The notes under the pieces: generated by a model | Databases searched by the model: none | Seen by the model: the letters and a program-made list of their open reading frames with translations, nothing else | Told to the model about the DNA's origin: nothing | From: Natronococcus occultus SP4 | GTDB lineage: Archaea; Halobacteriota; Halobacteria; Halobacteriales; Natrialbaceae | Direction: 5' to 3' | Assembly: GCF_000328685.1 (NCBI RefSeq) | Contig: NC_019974.1 | Span: 3,091,001-3,155,000 of the forward strand | DNA: 64,000 bases | Made by a program: the position numbers and the translations under genes | Shown here: piece by piece, positions 31,535 through 39,107 of the stretch | How positions within the stretch are numbered: the stretch's first letter is position 1 | How the letters are laid out: each line of letters starts with the position of its first letter

Positions 31535-31919
31535 CGCTTTCACCTCCGGTCTCCGTGCTGTTGTTGCCCTCGCTGGCGGCGATCTTCGCTTCGATCTCGC
31601 GAGTGTCTAAGGTTCCGAACTCCGAGTAGAGCCGGATCACGAGCGCGAGCGCGAGCGCCGTCAGCGAAACACCGACGACAATCGCCGTCAGAACGAGCAC
31701 GTGAACGATCGGGTTGGAGTAGGGTTCGCCGAGCCCGATGATCGGCGGGTTCGAGTCCTCGACGTAGCCGATCGTCACGAGCATCAGATAGACCGAAATC
31801 TGGGCGAAGTTGAGCCCGATGACCTTCTTGATGAGGTTCGGGTTGTCGATCATCATGTACGTCCCGATCAGGAACAGCGTGAACGCTGTCAGATAGTAGT
31901 GATAGGTTCCCTCGATCAC
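31527..31919 (-). CDS. mnhC: Mrp antiporter subunit C (NuoK-like)
   Basis: 130 residues, three membrane helices, the NuoK/MnhC fold. LFLIGTYMMIDNPNLIKKVI and GLNFAQISVYLMLVTIGY, followed by VHVLVLTAIVVGVSLTALAL, are typical. The acidic C-terminal tail (EGNNSTETGGESDD) is longer than bacterial versions. The first ATG overlaps the mnhB stop (ATGA), and its own stop overlaps the mnhD start, so translation is coupled. The subunit packs between the antiporter-like subunits in the membrane arm. Confidence 0.92.
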   Translation of the reverse strand: MIEGTYHYYLTAFTLFLIGTYMMIDNPNLIKKVIGLNFAQISVYLMLVTIGYVEDSNPPIIGLGEPYSNPIVHVLVLTAIVVGVSLTALALALVIRLYSEFGTLDTREIEAKIAASEGNNSTETGGESDD

Positions 31920-32632
31920 GCGTCGTCACCTCCGGTTTCGGTGTCGCTTTTGCTTGTTGTTTTCTCGGCCTTCTCGTAGCCGGCAGCGAGCCAGATCACG
32001 AGTCCGGTGATCACGCCGCTGACGAGGGCGGCGATCGCGACCTCGGCGAGCTTGACCATGTCTTCGACCGTTAGCGGAAAGACGAACAGCTCGAGGATCG
32101 CGCCCCCGAGCGGGACCGCGGCGACGGCGATCCCCCCGAACAGGAACGCGCCGAGCACGAACAGCCCGGCCAGCCCCCGTGGATCGATCCATTGCCGAGT
32201 CGGGTCGAAGCCGAACGCCAGCCCGATCAGCACGATCGCCGACGCCATCACGACGCCGCCCTGGAACGCGCCACCGGGAAGGCTAGTTCCGAACAGGGTC
32301 AAGTAGACGCCGAACGCCACGACGAACGGCGTCAGGATCCGGGCGACCGTCTTGACGACTGGCGTCTGGATGACCGGCGACGTGGTTTCTTCGACCTGTT
32401 CGTCGACGACCGCCCCGGAGCGGGCGTCCTCGGCAGTATCCTGTGTGTCCGTCCGCGGCTGCTCTTCGGTAACCGCCTCCTTCGGATCGGGGTCGTCCTC
32501 GGGAACGTAGCCGTGAACGTCCTCGTCGGCGGCATCGGCGTCGGTGCCGCCGTCGGGGCGCAGCTCCGTGGCACGGTCCGTTCCGTCGCCACTATCCGTG
32601 ATATCCCGGGGCGTCTCATCGGTGCCAGTCAT
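31916..32632 (-). CDS. mnhB: Mrp antiporter subunit B with acidic N-terminal extension
   Basis: 238 residues. Residues about 90-230 are the MnhB domain with four helices: SPVIQTPVVKTVARILTPFV, LTLFGTSLPGGAFQGGVVMA (the family hallmark), LAGLFVLGAFLFGGIAVAAV, AEVAIAALVSGVITGLVIW. The first 85 residues are an Asp/Glu/Thr-rich soluble extension that most homologues lack. The start ATG overlaps the stop of the preceding gene, and its stop overlaps mnhC. The extension is unexplained and may contact other proteins or simply reflect halophilic adaptation. Confidence 0.92.
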   Translation of the reverse strand: MTGTDETPRDITDSGDGTDRATELRPDGGTDADAADEDVHGYVPEDDPDPKEAVTEEQPRTDTQDTAEDARSGAVVDEQVEETTSPVIQTPVVKTVARILTPFVVAFGVYLTLFGTSLPGGAFQGGVVMASAIVLIGLAFGFDPTRQWIDPRGLAGLFVLGAFLFGGIAVAAVPLGGAILELFVFPLTVEDMVKLAEVAIAALVSGVITGLVIWLAAGYEKAEKTTSKSDTETGGDDA

Positions 32633-33249
32633 AGGATGTCCTCCCGTTCGAGTACGATGAGAATGCTCACTGCTGCGGCGAACGCGACGATAAGTTCGCC
32701 GAGCGTGTCCAGGCCGCGGTAGACGACCAGCACCGCGACGACCGCGTTGGGGAATCCGGCCTCTTCGAGCGTGTTCTCGATGTAGTGGCCGTACGGTGTG
32801 AGTTCGCCGTCGGCGTACGTCTCGACGACCGCGGGCGCGTTCTCGGCACCGACGGGTTCGAGCGAGAAGATAACATAACCCAGCGGAATCGCGAGGGAGC
32901 CGACTAACACCAGCGCCGGCACGTTGATCGGACGGAACGCCCCGCCCTCATCAACGGTGCTCCCGCCGTCGGTTTCGGCGGTTCGAGCGCCGGTTTCTTC
33001 GCTCTCGCCGGACATGCCCGTCGTTTTCATCACGGTGATCAGGAAGAGGACCGACGTGACGCCGGCGCCAACCGCCGCTTCGATCAGCGCGACGTCCGGC
33101 GCGGCCAGTAGTACCCAGATCACCGCGATTCCGAGGGTGAACGCGGCGAACGTAACGATCGCGCCGACGATGTCACGCGCGAACGCGACGAACACCGCGG
33201 CTGCGACGACGAACAGTATTAGTGCAAACTCGACTCCGAGCCACATCAT
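32629..33249 (-). CDS. MrpA C-terminal/MbhD-E-like subunit (DUF4040)
   Basis: 206 residues. Residues 1-80 hold three helices with FARDIVGAIVTFAAFTLGIA and LLAAPDVALIEAAVGAGVTS, the DUF4040 or MbhD signature. After a hydrophilic linker (GARTAETDGGSTVDEGG) come further helices and NAVVAVLVVYRGLDTLGELI, the MbhE-like signature. In bacterial Mrp this material is the C-terminal part of MrpA, so here MrpA is split into at least two genes. Overlaps both neighbours by ATGA. Role: structural and ion-path part of the antiporter membrane arm. Confidence 0.88.
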   Translation of the reverse strand: MMWLGVEFALILFVVAAAVFVAFARDIVGAIVTFAAFTLGIAVIWVLLAAPDVALIEAAVGAGVTSVLFLITVMKTTGMSGESEETGARTAETDGGSTVDEGGAFRPINVPALVLVGSLAIPLGYVIFSLEPVGAENAPAVVETYADGELTPYGHYIENTLEEAGFPNAVVAVLVVYRGLDTLGELIVAFAAAVSILIVLEREDIL

Positions 33250-33587
33250 GGCGAGTCACCTCCGCTTTCCGCGGCGGAATCGTTCTCGTCGGTCGTCCAG
33301 ACCTCGACGTCCTGACTGTACGCGGCGCGGGTGATCGAGTGGGCCGCCGTCGGGTTCGTGATGTAGATGAACACGAGCAGCAGGCCCGCTCGAAGCACCT
33401 CGCCTGCGGTACCGAAGTAGATCCCGACGGCGACGATCGTGAACCCGGCGCCGAGGGTGTCGGCCTTGGTCGCCGCGTGCGAGCGCGTGTAGACGTCCGG
33501 AAGACGGAGTACGCCGACGGCGGCGACCAGCGTGAAGAACACGCCAAACGCCACGAAGAGTACGATGACGGCCGTTGTCAGCGTCAT
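33246..33587 (-). CDS. mnhG: Mrp antiporter subunit G
   Basis: 113 residues from ATG 33587, which overlaps the mnhF stop as ATGA. Three helices: TTAVIVLFVAFGVFFTLVAA, GAGFTIVAVGIYFGTAGEVL, LRAGLLLVFIYITNPTAAHS. VGVLRLPDVYTRSHAATKAD is the strongly conserved MnhG motif (LPDxYxRxHAxTKxxTLG). The acidic tail after residue 95 is lineage-specific. It is a small membrane subunit needed for complex assembly in studied systems. Confidence 0.93.
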   Translation of the reverse strand: MTLTTAVIVLFVAFGVFFTLVAAVGVLRLPDVYTRSHAATKADTLGAGFTIVAVGIYFGTAGEVLRAGLLLVFIYITNPTAAHSITRAAYSQDVEVWTTDENDSAAESGGDSP

Positions 33588-33868
33588 CGCCACTTCACCT
33601 CCTCGGTCCGGTAGGAGAACCGACCGACCGCCAGACTCAGGACGAAGTTGAGGATGGCGTAGACGATGGCGATATCCAGGTACTCCGGTCGATCGAGTCC
33701 GGCGGCGATCAGTGCCAGGATGATGACGGTGCTGGTCCCGATCACGTTGATCGCAACTACCCGATCGTGCGTCGTTGGGCCGACTACGACGCGGTACAAC
33801 ACCGCGATCGCAAGCACCACGACGACCGCCGCGCCGAGTACCATGGCCGCGTTGGCGAGATCAGTCAT
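33584..33868 (-). CDS. mnhF: Mrp antiporter subunit F
   Basis: 94 residues from ATG 33868; a longer frame to 33898 is not needed. Three helices, with VLYRVVVGPTTHDRVVAINV as the MnhF signature (R..GP...DR..A.N) and YLDIAIVYAILNFVLSLAVG near the end. The start overlaps the mnhE stop within ATGACTGA, and its own stop overlaps mnhG. In Bacillus, MrpF is tied to bile-acid and Na+ efflux. Here it is simply part of the antiporter. Confidence 0.92.
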   Translation of the reverse strand: MTDLANAAMVLGAAVVVVLAIAVLYRVVVGPTTHDRVVAINVIGTSTVIILALIAAGLDRPEYLDIAIVYAILNFVLSLAVGRFSYRTEEVKWR

Positions 33869-34937
33869 CGGTCTCACCTCCGGATTCCGTTCCTGCACCC
33901 GGTCCGGCTCCGGCTACGGCGTCGGTCGACTGTACGACCGGCTCGATGTCGTCTCGAGCGATCGGACCGGGGAGATCGGTCCCGTCACGGCCGTAAAAGA
34001 GGAACCGGACCGCCCGCTCGTGAACGCCCTTCGCGAGGTCCTCGCGCGCCGAGGGAGCCAGCGAGTGGACGAGCAGTTCGCTTCCGACGGTATCGACCGT
34101 CAGCGTCCCCGGCGTCAGCGTGATGCTGTTGGCGAAGGCGGTAACGGAGAGGCCGTCGCCGACCGCGGCGTCGACCCGATCGAGACAGGGGTCGATCGGC
34201 AGCGACGGATGCAAAACGACGTAGGCGAACTGGACGTTGGCCTTGATGATCTCCCACAGCAGGTAGGGGACGAACAGCACGCCGCGGCCAAGCGTCGCCA
34301 GCGCGGGGCCGACGTGGGGCGTCCGCTCGAACGCGACGTTTCGCAGGAGTACGGCGGTTATCAGCGCGGTCACAGCTCCGGTCCAAAGCGCGAACGGATA
34401 GGTCGGACCACCCAGCGCGACGTAGAACGCGAACGCGACAACTGCGATAAAACCGCCGCGAATCAGCTCCGGACCGGTCGGTCGCCAGCTGCTCGAGACC
34501 GGCGAGACCTCGTACCGGATGTTCGATTCGGCCAGCACCGTCTCCATGTTCTGCAGCACGTGCGCGGTCGAGTCGACGGAGTAGTCGGGATCGATAATCA
34601 CCCGATCGAGATCGTGCTCCGCGACGTAGTCGACCAGCAGTTCGAAGTGGCTCACCGGGTCGGCGAAGTACTCGTTGGTTCCAAGCAGGTTCGCCCGGAC
34701 CGCGACGCCGTTTCCGGCTACTTCGGTCGCGTACCTCTCGGCCGTCGAAAGGAGTTTCTCGTCACGCTGGAGACCCTCGCGGCCGACGTGGTGACCGGGG
34801 GCCGTGAGGACAAGGTGAACGGCACCGTCGCCGTCTCCCTTCCTGACCATGTCGACGGCGTACTCGACCGTTTCCTCGAGCGTCGGCGATGGGCTCACCG
34901 GAACGAGGACGCCGTTCGTGGCGCTCACGCTGTCCAC
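33861..34937 (-). CDS. mnhE: USP-domain / MnhE fusion, first gene of the mrp operon
   Basis: 358 residues from GTG 34937. Residues about 8-150 form a universal-stress-type alpha/beta domain (NGVLVPVSPSPTLEETVEYA; DLDRVIIDPDY) without an obvious glycine-rich ATP loop. Residues about 160-330 are the MnhE domain: helices GGFIAVVAFAFYVAL and WTGAVTALITAVLL, then FVPYLLWEIIKANVQFAYVV and SITLTPGTLTVDTVGSELLV, the MnhE signature. The last 30 residues are acidic. The soluble USP part would sit in the cytoplasm and may sense stress or a nucleotide for the antiporter. Bacterial MnhE lacks it. Confidence 0.9.
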   Translation of the reverse strand: MDSVSATNGVLVPVSPSPTLEETVEYAVDMVRKGDGDGAVHLVLTAPGHHVGREGLQRDEKLLSTAERYATEVAGNGVAVRANLLGTNEYFADPVSHFELLVDYVAEHDLDRVIIDPDYSVDSTAHVLQNMETVLAESNIRYEVSPVSSSWRPTGPELIRGGFIAVVAFAFYVALGGPTYPFALWTGAVTALITAVLLRNVAFERTPHVGPALATLGRGVLFVPYLLWEIIKANVQFAYVVLHPSLPIDPCLDRVDAAVGDGLSVTAFANSITLTPGTLTVDTVGSELLVHSLAPSAREDLAKGVHERAVRFLFYGRDGTDLPGPIARDDIEPVVQSTDAVAGAGPGAGTESGGETDD

Positions 34938-35467
34938 CTCCGTCGGTACTTCCGATCCGAACCGATCGAGCGACGCAGGGGGGTACTCGATGCGGGCGTT
35001 CGATCGTCGGTCCTACAGGAGACCGCTTGTCGGACGGCCACCGTGTCCGACAGCGGTACGTGCAGTCGTTTAGCTGCCACCGCAGATCCCTCCTGGTGAC
35101 CGTCGTTTGCTACTCATAGCTCTCTTCTCGTTAGTCGGACCAAGCGCCAGACGTAGGAAAACTATTTCGTTATCCGCCGGCACGACGGGAATCGATAAAC
35201 AAACGGAAGCAAAGCGATATTGTCTTCACTTGATAGCCGATACCGAATTTCGGTTTTCGAATGTTATATTCTGGAGAGTCAGGTCGCGTGGACCGGACGC
35301 ACACTCCCGGTCCGGGCGCGGACTCCCCGACGCTCCGGCCGCGTGTCTTCTGGCCCATTTTTCCGCTGGAACGGAGGGCGATACACCCCCCCCTCCGCAA
35401 GGTCGGACGGTTCGACATCGAACCCCAACCTTTACAACTGCAGTTTCAGTAGACAAACCTGATTTGC
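34938..35467. promoter_or_regulatory. Divergent region between mrp and cbt operons
   Basis: 530 bases without a supported gene. AT-rich blocks occur at about 35156-35180 and 35240-35275. A TTTACA-like box at about 35431-35436 lies roughly 32-37 bases before the CbtB start. The end nearest 34938 should hold the mrp promoter. I saw no long palindrome. Confidence 0.4.
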
Positions 35468-35650
35468 ATGACTCGAGAGACCGTTGCCGACCGAATCGAC
35501 GCCGCACGTGCGATGCTAACGCCAATACAGGCCGCAACCGGCCTGACGTTCGCCACGGGGATCGCGTTCGTTCTCGTGTTCCTGCAGGACCCGCTCGCAC
35601 ACGACGCGATGCACAACTTCCGCCACGCGGCGGGAATCACCTGCCACTGA
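35468..35650 (+). CDS. cbtB: CbtB-type cobalt transporter small subunit
   Basis: 60 residues. One membrane helix (LTFATGIAFVLVFLQDPLAH) precedes the family's His-rich end, HDAMHNFRHAAGITCH, which supplies metal-binding side chains. CbtB was proposed, from its co-occurrence with cobalamin genes, to be a cobalt uptake subunit together with CbtA; direct transport evidence for this class is limited. Four bases separate it from CbtA. Confidence 0.9.
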   Translation: MTRETVADRIDAARAMLTPIQAATGLTFATGIAFVLVFLQDPLAHDAMHNFRHAAGITCH

Positions 35651-35654
35651 ACCG

Positions 35655-36389
35655 ATGCTCTACGACTACCTCCGCCGGGGTGTGCAGGCGGGTGCGATCG
35701 CCGGCCTCGCGTACGGACTGTTCATGGCGTTCGTCGCGAATCCGCTCAGCGAGTACCTCCACCACGCACAACACGACCACGGTCACGATCACCACGACCA
35801 CGCCCACACCGTCTCCGAGACGACGACGGCGATCGTCAGCGTCGGGAGCGGCGTCCTCTGGGCGATCTTCCTCGGCGGCGTCTTCGCGATCGCGGTGTAC
35901 TTCCTCGAGCCGGCGCTTCCCGGCCGCGGTGCGGGCAGCACGTTCGTCCTCGCCGGCGCCGGATTCCTGACCGTGTCGGCGACACCGTGGCTCGTCCTCC
36001 CGCCAGCGGCCCCCGGCGCGGAACAGCTGTATACCGTCGAGTTGCGACTGGCAATCTACGCCGGACTCGTCGCGCTCGGCGCGCTCGTCTCGGCCACAGC
36101 GATCGGTTCGTACAGACGGGGCGCGTCCCGACACCGGGCGCTCGGAGTCGTCGCCGCCGCGGCCCCGATCGTCGCGACCACGGTCGTCCTTTCGACTGTC
36201 GCGCCGACGGTCGTAAGCCACCCCGACCTGGCCGGCGAGCTCGTCTCGGCGTACCAGGCGATGGCCGCGCTGAGTCAGGCCGCAATCTGGGCGATCCTCG
36301 CCGCGTCGGTGAGCTGGCTTGAACGTCGTGACGCGACCTCGACAGCCGGTGTCGCCGGCCCGAACGACCGCCGCTCGACGAGCCCCTGA
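35655..36389 (+). CDS. cbtA: CbtA-type cobalt transporter membrane subunit
   Basis: 244 residues, five to six membrane helices. After the first helix (GAIAGLAYGLFMAFVANPLS) comes an extracellular-type His/Asp cluster, HHAQHDHGHDHHDHAHT, a plausible metal-gathering loop. The CbtA pattern continues with VGSGVLWAIFLGGVFAIAVY and the PWLVLPPAAPGAEQLY motif (P..PPA.PG.E). Two bases separate its stop from the ferredoxin-like gene. CbtA is predicted to move cobalt for cobamide synthesis; the window also encodes CobA and CbiP farther away. Confidence 0.9.
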   Translation: MLYDYLRRGVQAGAIAGLAYGLFMAFVANPLSEYLHHAQHDHGHDHHDHAHTVSETTTAIVSVGSGVLWAIFLGGVFAIAVYFLEPALPGRGAGSTFVLAGAGFLTVSATPWLVLPPAAPGAEQLYTVELRLAIYAGLVALGALVSATAIGSYRRGASRHRALGVVAAAAPIVATTVVLSTVAPTVVSHPDLAGELVSAYQAMAALSQAAIWAILAASVSWLERRDATSTAGVAGPNDRRSTSP

Positions 36390-36391
36390 CC

Positions 36392-36772
36392 ATGCAACGA
36401 CGAACGACCCGACAGCGGGAACGTCTCGGCGCGTGCGTGTTCATCTGTACGAACGACCGCGACTCCGACTACGCCTGCTGTAGTGACGCCGGTGCCGAGG
36501 AGACGCTCGCGGCAGTCAACTCCTGGCTCCGCGAGCGTGGTGCGTTCTGGTCGCCGGTCGGCGTCACGACGACCGGCTGCCTCGGCCTCTGTAGCGCGGA
36601 CGGTACGGCGATCGCGATCCAGCCCCGCGACGAGTGGTACGCCGACGTCACTCCCGAGGACGTGCCCGCGCTGCTCGAACGCGAGTTCGGCCCGGACGCC
36701 GACTCGATCGACGAGCGGGCGGCCGACGCGGACGGGAGCGATTCGCTCGGTGTGACCCACCCCGACGATTGA
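36392..36772 (+). CDS. Thioredoxin-like [2Fe-2S] ferredoxin
   Basis: 126 residues. It has a thioredoxin-fold ferredoxin pattern: VFICTNDRDSDYACCSDAGA, then TTTGCLGLCSADG, giving Cys ligands in the C-x10-CC and C-x3-C arrangement of this class. The final 35 residues are an acidic tail. It directly follows cbtBA, and such ferredoxins are frequent partners of cobalt transporters and cobaltochelatase genes in haloarchaeal cobalamin clusters. It may donate electrons in cobalt reduction, which is inferred from context. Confidence 0.85.
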   Translation: MQRRTTRQRERLGACVFICTNDRDSDYACCSDAGAEETLAAVNSWLRERGAFWSPVGVTTTGCLGLCSADGTAIAIQPRDEWYADVTPEDVPALLEREFGPDADSIDERAADADGSDSLGVTHPDD

Positions 36773-36798
36773 TCCTGCTGGATGTCGTGGCTCGTCGT

Positions 36799-37971
36799 AT
36801 GCCAGGCGAGATCGTCGTCGTCGACGGCGCACGGACGCCCCACGGAACGCTTCTCGGCTCCCTCGCCGGGGTTGGCCCCGTCGAGCTCGGCCGAACGGCC
36901 CTTGACGGCCTGCTCGAGCGAACTGCCGTGTCCGGGGAAGAGATCGACTGGGTGGCACTCGGTAATGCGATCCAGGCCGGAATCGGACAGGTCCCGGGCC
37001 GACAGGCCGTCGTCGAGTCCGAGCTGCCAAACGAGACGCAGGTGACGACGGTCAACGAGGCCTCGGGGTCGGGGCTGCGGGCGATCGCGCTGGCGGTCGA
37101 CCGAATCGAGGTCGGACGGGCCGAGTTCGCGGTCGCCGGCGGCTTCGAATCGATGACCAACGCCCCCTGGATTCTGCCGGACTACCGGAAGGGACGGCGC
37201 CACGGCGACGCGACGTTGAAGGATTCAATGATCATGGACTCGCTGTGGGACGTCAACCTCGACGTCCACATGGGCGAGATCACCGAGCGACTCGTCGATC
37301 GCGAGGACGTCTCCCGGGAAGCCCAGGACGAGTACGCCCTCGGGAGCCACCGCCGTGCGGCCGACGCGATCGAGACGGGCGCGTTCGACGACGAGATCGT
37401 CCCCGTCGAGACGGGAGGGGAGACGGTCGACACGGACGAGGGACCGCGTCCCGACTCGACGCTGTCGGATCTGGCCGAACTTCCCGCCTCCTTTCGCGAG
37501 GACGGGACGGTCACCCCGGGCAACGCCTCGAAGCTCAGCGACGGCGCCGGGATGGTGTTGCTCGCCGACGCGGACGCCGCGGCCGATCGCGGACTCGAGC
37601 CGATGGCTCGGCTCGTCGACTACGAGCTGGTCTATCGCGACCCCGACGAGTTCAACGAGGCGGTCGGCGACGTCGTCGCGAGCCTGCTCGCGGATAACGA
37701 GCTCGCGGTTTCGGACGTCGACGCGTTCTGGATCAACGAGGCGTTCGCGGCCCAGTCGGTGTACGTCATGGAGCGGCTCGGGATCCCGCGCGAGAAGATG
37801 AATCCCTCGGGCGGAGCGATCGCCTTCGGTCACCCGATCGGCGCCTCCGGTGGAATGCTGACGACCAGCCTGGCATACCAACTCCGGGACGATCCGGACG
37901 TCGAGCGCGGCCTCGTCGGAATGAGCGTCGGCGGGGGCGGGGCGATCATGGCATTGCTCGAGCGCGTCTGA
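36799..37971 (+). CDS. Thiolase-family protein with Ser in place of both catalytic Cys
   Basis: 390 residues, full thiolase length. The fold motifs are present: GARTPHGTLLGSLAG, GGFESMTNAPW, WINEAFAAQSVYV, and GGAIAFGHPIGASGG with the active His345. The nucleophile position reads NEASGSGLRA, so Ser89 replaces Cys. The second Cys position reads GMSVGGGGAIM, so Ser376 replaces Cys. Haloarchaeal beta-ketothiolases of the two-subunit BktB/PhaA type are known to use Ser-His-His. No OB-fold partner gene lies next to this one. It probably condenses or cleaves acyl-CoAs, but the atypical site makes activity uncertain. Confidence 0.88.
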   Translation: MPGEIVVVDGARTPHGTLLGSLAGVGPVELGRTALDGLLERTAVSGEEIDWVALGNAIQAGIGQVPGRQAVVESELPNETQVTTVNEASGSGLRAIALAVDRIEVGRAEFAVAGGFESMTNAPWILPDYRKGRRHGDATLKDSMIMDSLWDVNLDVHMGEITERLVDREDVSREAQDEYALGSHRRAADAIETGAFDDEIVPVETGGETVDTDEGPRPDSTLSDLAELPASFREDGTVTPGNASKLSDGAGMVLLADADAAADRGLEPMARLVDYELVYRDPDEFNEAVGDVVASLLADNELAVSDVDAFWINEAFAAQSVYVMERLGIPREKMNPSGGAIAFGHPIGASGGMLTTSLAYQLRDDPDVERGLVGMSVGGGGAIMALLERV

Positions 37972-38036
37972 ACCGCCATCGTGCCGAGACAGGGGTTTCG
38001 AGGGGTTTACCTATCCGCTGTTCCCAGTGGTTATCA

Positions 38037-39107
38037 ATGACGCTGTACTCGCGAGTTCGCCCGCTCGCGTTCAAACTCCCTGCCGAGACGGCCCACACGC
38101 TCGGGAAACGGGCGTTGCGTGCCGCCCAGTCGACGTGGCTGACGCGGGCGGCACTCGCCTCGAACTACCGGTACGCGCATCCGGCACTCGAGACCGAGCT
38201 GTTCGGCAGTCGGTTTCCGAACCCGGTCGGGGTAGCCGCGGGGTTCGACAAGAACGCCGAGGTGACTCACGCCCTCGAGGCGCTCGGGTTCGGGTTCGTC
38301 GAGGTCGGGACGGTGACGCCGTACCCCCAGGCCGGAAACGATCGCCCGCGGCTGTTCCGGCTCCGGACGGACGAGGCGATGATCAATCGAATGGGGTTCA
38401 ACGGGCAGGGGATGGAGCGGGTTCGGGCCCGGCTCGAACGACGCGGACCGCCCCAGGTTCCCCTCGGAGTCAACATCGGGAAGATGAACTCCTCGGACGA
38501 GGACGAGGCGATCGAGGACTACCGGCGCGTGTTCGATCGGCTCGCACCCTTCGCCGACTACGTCGTCGTCAACGTCTCCTGTCCGAACACGCCCGACGAG
38601 TTCGACGAGGCCTCGCCCGACCACCTCCACTCGATCTTCGAGACGCTCGCGGCCGAGAACGACGACGACGTTCCGATCCTCGTCAAGATCGGCCCCGACT
38701 CGCCGGAGGACTCGATGCTCGAGCTGCTCGGGATCGTCGAGGACCACGACCTCGACGGGATCGTCGCGACGAACACGACCACCGGCCGCGAGGGCGTCAA
38801 CTCGCCGAAGGCCGCGGAGCGGGGCGGGCTCAGCGGGGCGCCGCTGGCGGAGCGCTCGACCGAGGTGATCCGGACGCTGGCGAGAAACGCGGACGACGAT
38901 CTGCCAATCGTCGGCGTCGGGGGCGTCGACTCGGCCGAGGGCGCCTACGAGAAGATCCGCGCGGGCGCCTCGCTCGTCCAGCTCTACACCGGGTTCGTCT
39001 ACGGCGGGCCCGGGACAGCCAGACGGATCAACCAGGGACTCGTCGACCTGCTCGAGCAGGACGGCTTTTCCTCGGTCGAGGACGCGGTCGGAGCCGACCT
39101 CGAGTAG
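38037..39107 (+). CDS. pyrD: Dihydroorotate dehydrogenase (quinone), class 2
   Basis: 356 residues. The class 2 N-terminal helical extension (SRVRPLAFKLPAETAHTLGK) for membrane and quinone docking is present. FMN motifs: NPVGVAAGFDKNAEV and GFVEVGTVTPYPQAGNDRPR; active-site Ser in VNVSCPNTP; GVGGVDSAEGAYEKIRAGAS binds the flavin phosphate. It oxidises dihydroorotate to orotate in pyrimidine synthesis, passing electrons to the quinone pool. Convergent with a dihydroorotase-like gene that ends 21 bases away, which may be coincidence or functional pairing. Confidence 0.95.
   Translation: MTLYSRVRPLAFKLPAETAHTLGKRALRAAQSTWLTRAALASNYRYAHPALETELFGSRFPNPVGVAAGFDKNAEVTHALEALGFGFVEVGTVTPYPQAGNDRPRLFRLRTDEAMINRMGFNGQGMERVRARLERRGPPQVPLGVNIGKMNSSDEDEAIEDYRRVFDRLAPFADYVVVNVSCPNTPDEFDEASPDHLHSIFETLAAENDDDVPILVKIGPDSPEDSMLELLGIVEDHDLDGIVATNTTTGREGVNSPKAAERGGLSGAPLAERSTEVIRTLARNADDDLPIVGVGGVDSAEGAYEKIRAGASLVQLYTGFVYGGPGTARRINQGLVDLLEQDGFSSVEDAVGADLE

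Follow-up and report, generated by a model that had tools for sequence, protein, structure and literature searches.

A thiolase homologue with serine at both catalytic cysteine positions is conserved among haloarchaea

The Ser/Ser gene and its catalytic positions

The window analysed here is a 64,000-nucleotide stretch of the Natronococcus occultus SP4 genome (NC_019974.1, positions 3,091,001 to 3,155,000). It carries a gene for a type I thiolase homologue in which serine stands at the positions of both catalytic cysteines, referred to below as the Ser/Ser gene and protein. Its features, in window coordinates, are as follows.

36799..37971, + strand: Ser/Ser type I thiolase homologue, 390 aa plus stop codon, cysteine-free (TIGR01930, PF00108, PF02803)
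37063..37065, + strand: Ser89 codon TCG, nucleophile position (phmmer alignment; 70/70 distinct proteins)
37633..37671, + strand: loop 279-291 at the VMGxGP fingerprint, with clade-specific Tyr279, Arg280, Phe285, Val289 and Asp291
37735..37737, + strand: Asn313 of the NEAF box (invariant, 70/70)
37831..37833, + strand: His345 of the GHP box (invariant, 70/70; aligned with the GHP His of solved thiolases)
37924..37926, + strand: Ser376 codon AGC, second catalytic Cys position (phmmer alignment; invariant, 70/70)

A preliminary description, made from the sequence alone, had read the nucleophile box as NEASGSG and the second cysteine box as GMSVGGGG, with His345 and the NEAFA box intact. Translation of 36799-37971 agrees on all four motifs (Ser89, Ser376, the His of GHP and Asn313). 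Against TIGR01930, whose cut-off is 240.55, the protein reaches 373 bits. It scores 264 bits against PF00108 (Thiolase_N) and 95 bits against PF02803 (Thiolase_C), both Pfam scores being over cut-off; because of these matches it is placed by sequence class among the classical bacterial-type thiolases. Orthologue matches start at residues 1-5 of the window protein.

The central claim of that description, that Ser89 and Ser376 replace both catalytic cysteines, is borne out by phmmer alignment against PDB sequences. Ser89 falls on the Cys of NKVCGSG and Ser376 on the Cys of LCIGGG in the thiolase of Clostridium acetobutylicum, whose catalytic residues are named as Cys88 and Cys378 (PMC4595758). 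Type I thiolases carry a nucleophilic Cys in a CxS motif and a second Cys in a CxGGG motif; all 70 distinct orthologues have Ser at both. The NEAF Asn and the GHP His are present in all 70, and the former is the oxyanion-hole Asn of thiolases (PMC3406046).

Distribution and sequence conservation

Within the window's family, a protein search at E <= 1e-100 found the gene in 43 of the 125 genomes. At order level 77 of 392 genomes had a match (E <= 1e-70); the match in G197 (locus L160, 38% identity) proved to be of the Cys type, which leaves 76. Motifs were read directly in 57 of the 76, including G049 by its N-terminal motif only, and the remaining 19 were assigned through identity (60-79%). 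NEASGSG occurs in 79 fetched loci, 78 of them full length. Both Ser motifs are present in 78/78, and 70 of the proteins are distinct; these span several haloarchaeal families at 57-89% identity. Positions 86, 89, 91, 115, 313, 314, 345, 346, 350, 376 and 378 do not vary among the 70 proteins, so that Ser89, Asn313, His345 and Ser376 are all invariant.

Of these proteins 32/70 are wholly cysteine-free, and no column has Cys in more than 9/70. Since there is no common Cys column, a nucleophile relocated to another cysteine is ruled out among the 70 distinct proteins. Cys occupies both aligned columns in all 75 Cys-type relatives compared (L040-L113 and L160). Among 12 further relatives from a scan of the phylum, the nucleophile position is Cys in 12/12 and the second position in 11/11 that could be read. 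A Ser/Ser enzyme outside haloarchaea was dropped as a candidate, as these 12 fetched matches below 57% identity, the ones that were read, all have the nucleophile Cys; bacteria were sampled through the best 80 loci and a plasmid listing.

In ten haloarchaeal strains the Ser/Ser thiolase lies on records filed as plasmid (70-83% identity; motifs read in some), which suggests movement between replicons. In G049 (L161, G049:C1:2911461-2924189) the gene is interrupted: its first part covers some 250 residues, and another piece, which clusters with thiolases, begins about 1.77 kb downstream from where the gene starts.

Selection and phylogeny

The gene is under purifying selection: the ratio of nonsynonymous to synonymous rates (dN/dS, NG86) is 0.11-0.16 between the window gene and six orthologues. 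The codon at position 89 is TCN in 71/71 distinct sequences. At position 376 it is AGY in 69/70 and TCG in one (L135). A sequencing error or misaligned serines, the conditions under which the preliminary description would have failed, and a pseudogene are negligible as explanations and were rejected. Invariance in 70/70 distinct proteins, the low dN/dS and the residue alignment to solved thiolases all speak against them, and there is no sign of any of them in the window.

A tree was built from 36 Ser/Ser and 31 Cys/Cys rows. All Ser/Ser rows lie on one side of a single branch with support 100/100 (all of 200 bootstrap trees), and the stem below the clade is long, at 0.8 changes per column. The nearest rows outside the clade are bacterial (actinobacterial, support 88/79). 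Given the bacterial neighbours and the single clade, the simplest reading of the sequences would be a single transfer or duplication, after which a double Cys-to-Ser substitution took place once; the best reading is that both cysteines were replaced once and the serines then fixed. The preliminary description is extended in that the whole haloarchaeal clade carries the change as a fixed trait, together with further clade-specific changes in the active-site region.

Other thiolases of the genome

The genome has eight Thiolase_N places, including the Ser/Ser gene (NEASGSG/NEAF/GHP). Two are Cys-type classical thiolases (NRWCASS and NRMCGSG). Two BktB/PhaA-type alpha subunits (QTSSSGG/HDMF) each have an OB-fold place next to them, and two Cys-type enzymes of the other, non-classical class (ESACASSG and ENACAASG, HDCF in both) each have one no more than 2 kb away. 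The eighth place, another thiolase-fold protein of the Ser type (G000:C3:210110-210724, L119), reads ENTSATG, HDAF and GHP; the OB-fold (PF01796) search gave no place on its contig, C3.

Haloarchaeal two-subunit BktB/PhaA thiolases are active enzymes that use Ser-His-His, as the preliminary description had stated and a review confirms (PMC7137286). That description had also remarked that no OB-fold partner gene is adjacent, and had proposed a genome search for one together with an alignment to the BktB alpha. Both were run. Four PF01796 places exist in the genome (two below the family cut-off), all next to other thiolase-family genes and accounted for by those alpha genes. None was found near the Ser/Ser gene (C1:3127799), the nearest being about 340 kb away. 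A genome-wide search for a spare PF01796-type partner found none; no separate search was made for the DUF35 zinc-ribbon family.

The Ser/Ser protein is 23% identical to the genome's own BktB-type alpha, which carries Thiolase_C_1; the Ser/Ser protein matches PF02803 (Thiolase_C), not PF22691. Against the NCBIfam equivalogs for BktB and PhaA (NF042999 and NF042967) it is below the cut-offs, with 297 vs 725 and 275 vs 740 bits. Like BktB/PhaA it has Ser at the nucleophile position. The BktB-type alpha reads HDMF, and the His of HD.F can be read as one of the named Ser-His-His triad; at this place the Ser/Ser proteins have Asn313 of NEAF in 70/70. The third position is also Ser, as first noticed, where the BktB-type alpha has the Asn of LCCNVGGFG. 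Membership in the BktB/PhaA alpha family was therefore rejected on identity, C-terminal domain and NEAF in place of HD.F. By its domain matches the Ser/Ser protein is a classical bacterial-type thiolase and not a BktB/PhaA-type alpha subunit, which refines the preliminary description. Its Cys-to-Ser change consequently looks separate from that of BktB/PhaA; cysteine loss looks independent in the two classes, since this genome encodes Cys-type members of both.

Active-site region and predicted structure

Comparison of the 70 Ser-clade proteins with the 75 Cys-type proteins gives 21 columns in which at least 95% of the clade share one residue that occurs in at most 10% of the Cys-type. These include His15, Glu87, Ala88, Ser89, Tyr279, Arg280, Phe285, Val289, Asp291, Gly352, Met375, Ser376 and Gly381. 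Within loop 279-291, every clade-specific residue reaches at least 96% among the Ser/Ser proteins and no more than 10% among the Cys-type relatives. Columns 279-291 coincide with the VMG stretch, described as setting substrate size (PMC3406046), and with residues 280-292 of the clostridial thiolase, a regulatory region (PMC4595758). To judge from the alignment, the active site is rebuilt around the serines.

An AlphaFold2 model made from an input alignment of 35 sequences has a mean predicted local distance difference test score of 94.5 and a predicted template-modelling score of 0.94. Its top PDB matches are bacterial biosynthetic thiolases, Ralstonia PhaA and BktB among them (Foldseek, VIA-align 2), with a template-modelling (TM) score of ~0.95, Z of ~61 and a root-mean-square deviation of 1.6-1.7 Å over ~387 residues. 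In this confident model the Ser/Ser protein is predicted to have the thiolase fold; a shared fold is no proof of function.

Gene neighbourhoods and polyhydroxyalkanoate genes

Polyhydroxyalkanoate (PHA) genes lie within about 7 kb of the thiolase gene in 4 of the 43 neighbourhoods compared (42 loci and the window): two Halegenticoccus loci (L038, L039), L158 and L159. They comprise MaoC/phaJ-like, PhaE and PhaC genes, and in L158 and L159 a short-chain dehydrogenase/reductase (SDR) gene of the acetoacetyl-CoA reductase (phaB-like) type. Family checks were made on representatives: PhaC of L039 (TIGR01836, 419 bits), PhaE of L159 (PF09712, 36 bits), MaoC of L038 and the SDR of L159. Small PhaP-like and phasin-like proteins in these loci have no Pfam match and their names are a guess. 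The four loci come from the same family, and the linkage may therefore reflect a single event.

PhaC occurs in 43/43 family genomes with the gene and 62/82 without it (Fisher 1.5e-4), and in 74/76 order genomes with it and 155/316 without it (Fisher 1.3e-17), both tests taking no account of kinship or genome size. The two genomes that have the gene but lack PhaC (G256 and G286) are of one genus, Haladaptatus. Three genomes with the Ser/Ser gene lack a match to the BktB-type alpha; in one the alpha is broken over contigs, and the other two genomes are incomplete. G088 was considered as a natural case without the BktB alpha and dropped: short stretches of the BktB alpha, two of which are 92% and 96% identical, lie on different contigs of this genome, and the assembly is probably broken there.

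Haloferax mediterranei ATCC 33500 has an orthologue on plasmid pHME505 (E6P09_RS15290, WP_004061064.1; 74% identity, NEASGSG and MSIGGGG). It lies about 53 kb along the record from a BktB-type alpha (97.9-99.0 kb) that is 79% identical to that of the N. occultus genome.

The window neighbours (Mrp antiporter genes, CbtA, a ferredoxin-like gene, pyrD and a dihydroorotase/allantoinase-like gene) give no functional clue to the thiolase. The block at 31916-39107, which runs from the Mrp antiporter through CbtA, the ferredoxin-like gene and the Ser/Ser thiolase to a quinone-dependent dihydroorotate dehydrogenase (pyrD), recurs in relatives; in Haloterrigena turkmenica the same Mrp-to-pyrD block is on plasmid pHTUR04. 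Elsewhere other genes adjoin the thiolase. In Halegenticoccus L038 two tandem ribbon-helix-helix, NikR-like proteins (one Pfam-checked) are encoded upstream, at -1809 to -816 from the thiolase, and in Haladaptatus L037, L129 and L130 an MTH1187-family thiamine-binding gene lies directly upstream, at about -325 to -5. An MTH1187-family gene overlaps the annotated thiolase start in L172.

Proposed function and alternatives

The favoured explanation, to which we give a probability of roughly 0.55, is that the Ser/Ser protein is a single-subunit, haloarchaea-specific descendant of a bacterial-type thiolase that works by Claisen/retro-Claisen chemistry through an O-acyl-serine intermediate and probably has a link to PHA metabolism. 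In its favour are the four invariant catalytic positions without any common Cys column, the low dN/dS, the single clade, the predicted thiolase fold, the PHA genes near it in four neighbourhoods, the co-occurrence with PhaC and the precedent of the active Ser-His-His BktB/PhaA enzymes. By analogy with thiolases and with those BktB/PhaA enzymes, His345 would help to activate Ser89, which would accept the acyl group from acyl-coenzyme A (acyl-CoA) or 3-ketoacyl-CoA to give an O-acyl-Ser89 intermediate. The enolate of the second substrate would be stabilised by Asn313 and His345, and Ser376 would stand in for the proton-shuttling Cys. The likely place of such an enzyme would be the supply or recycling of acetoacetyl-CoA and 3-ketoacyl-CoA near PHA metabolism, accessory to the two-subunit BktB/PhaA.

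A possible benefit would be a thiol-free active site that oxidants do not poison. Thiolases of E. coli and Zoogloea do not recover from strong H2O2 treatment; in the clostridial thiolase, a disulfide joining the two cysteines gives protection (PMC4595758). A cysteine-free enzyme could avoid both the loss to H2O2 and the need for the disulfide. A broader proposal can be offered only tentatively: Ser-nucleophile thiolases may have arisen independently at least twice in haloarchaea, in the two-subunit BktB/PhaA line and in the one-subunit Ser-His-Ser line, the latter carrying out an oxyester Claisen condensation that resists oxidants.

Several observations weigh against this explanation. Engineered Cys-to-Ser mutants of thiolases are reportedly slow. 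Loop 279-291 is rebuilt, with the Pro found in 75/75 Cys-type relatives replaced by Val289 and a Met by Phe; substrate or reaction may therefore differ. No PHA cluster of the kind described was found among the conserved neighbours in 39/43 neighbourhoods, the window's included. The BktB-type alpha co-occurs in 73/76 genomes with the Ser/Ser gene, so the co-occurrence with PHA genes is not specific. In H. mediterranei, HFX_6004-6003 and HFX_1023-1022 alone of eight potential thiolase genes are said to serve synthesis of poly(3-hydroxybutyrate-co-3-hydroxyvalerate) (PHBV), and deletion of both two-subunit thiolases abolishes PHA, according to a review (PMC6631277); the Ser/Ser gene is thus insufficient there. 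CRISPR interference against both two-subunit thiolases left 0.58 of 2.32 g/L PHBV (PMC8387396), a residue that could be explained by leaky repression. Given the H. mediterranei knockouts, the Ser/Ser protein would be at best accessory in PHA metabolism, or act elsewhere in 3-ketoacyl-CoA metabolism.

The same H. mediterranei result, together with the long stem (0.8) and the 21 clade-specific columns (the VMGxGP loop, Glu87, His15 and Gly352 among them), would also fit a thiolase-fold enzyme that uses Ser89, His345 and Ser376 for a different reaction, such as 3-ketoacyl-CoA hydrolysis, decarboxylation, other acyl transfer or an aldol reaction. Sal and Ltp2 are thiolase-fold enzymes turned aldolases, but they work with a DUF35 partner (PMC12329534); none was found beside the Ser/Ser gene in the PF01796 search. 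As the protein matches Claisen-type thiolases in its Asn/His pair and its fold as a whole, we regard a different reaction as unlikely. A non-catalytic thiolase-like protein, acting as a regulator or CoA binder, is more improbable still. Its precedent is Mycobacterium smegmatis TLP1, which has Gly for the nucleophile Cys and shows no thiolase activity; however, TLP1 retains no catalytic residue (PMC3406046), whereas the Ser/Ser clade has invariant Ser, Asn and His at these positions, and Ser376 is held even in the one sequence that encodes it by the other Ser codon class (TCG).

It is highly improbable that the protein is a catalytic subunit that borrows the BktB/PhaA OB-fold beta subunit in trans. 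The BktB and PhaA beta subunits are interchangeable (PMC7137286) and the genome has four OB-fold genes, but all four places adjoin their own alpha genes (in the PF01796 search, DUF35 zinc-ribbon proteins not being searched separately), and the Ser/Ser protein, which is of the classical class (Thiolase_C), can be superposed on solved bacterial thiolases along its entire length.

If the Claisen/retro-Claisen assignment is true, C-C bond formation can run without any enzyme thiol, and the clade is a second, separate case of a Cys-to-Ser swap beside BktB/PhaA. It could also provide an oxidation-proof, one-gene thiolase for polyesters or other products of acetoacetyl-CoA. If instead a new reaction is carried out on the thiolase fold, this is a widespread haloarchaeal enzyme of another kind.

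Comparison with known systems

The literature searched, which lay mostly outside subscription papers, turned up no account of a Ser/Ser type I thiolase or a 'Ser-His-Ser' thiolase. PMC3406046 describes Cys as the key residue of every characterised thiolase. Bacterial type I thiolases (PhaA/AtoB/ThlA, TIGR01930; for example those of C. acetobutylicum and E. coli and Ralstonia PhaA) share with the Ser/Ser protein the fold, both Pfam domains, the single-subunit length, the NEAF Asn, the GHP His and the glycine-rich C-terminal loop. Identity is 33-42% to the best solved bacterial thiolases and reaches 48% with other relatives of the Cys type. The Ser/Ser protein differs from them in having Ser for both catalytic cysteines and in changes to loop 279-291 and residues 15, 87, 88, 352, 375 and 381.

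The haloarchaeal BktB/PhaA alpha resembles the Ser/Ser protein in its nucleophile Ser, the lack of a second catalytic Cys, its haloarchaeal distribution and, probably, its PHA link. It is unlike it in HDMF, the Asn at the Ser376 position, Thiolase_C_1 and the OB-fold partner. M. smegmatis TLP1 likewise has the thiolase fold without a nucleophile cysteine, but has Gly there, no catalytic residue and an extra C-terminal domain, and is described as inactive (PMC3406046).

The same single substitutions are reportedly also represented by the engineered C89S and C378S forms of the Zoogloea ramigera thiolase. C378S of the C. acetobutylicum enzyme is likewise a man-made counterpart of one of them (PMC4595758). 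Unlike these mutants, the haloarchaeal proteins carry both Ser changes together, as a natural state and with many accompanying changes.
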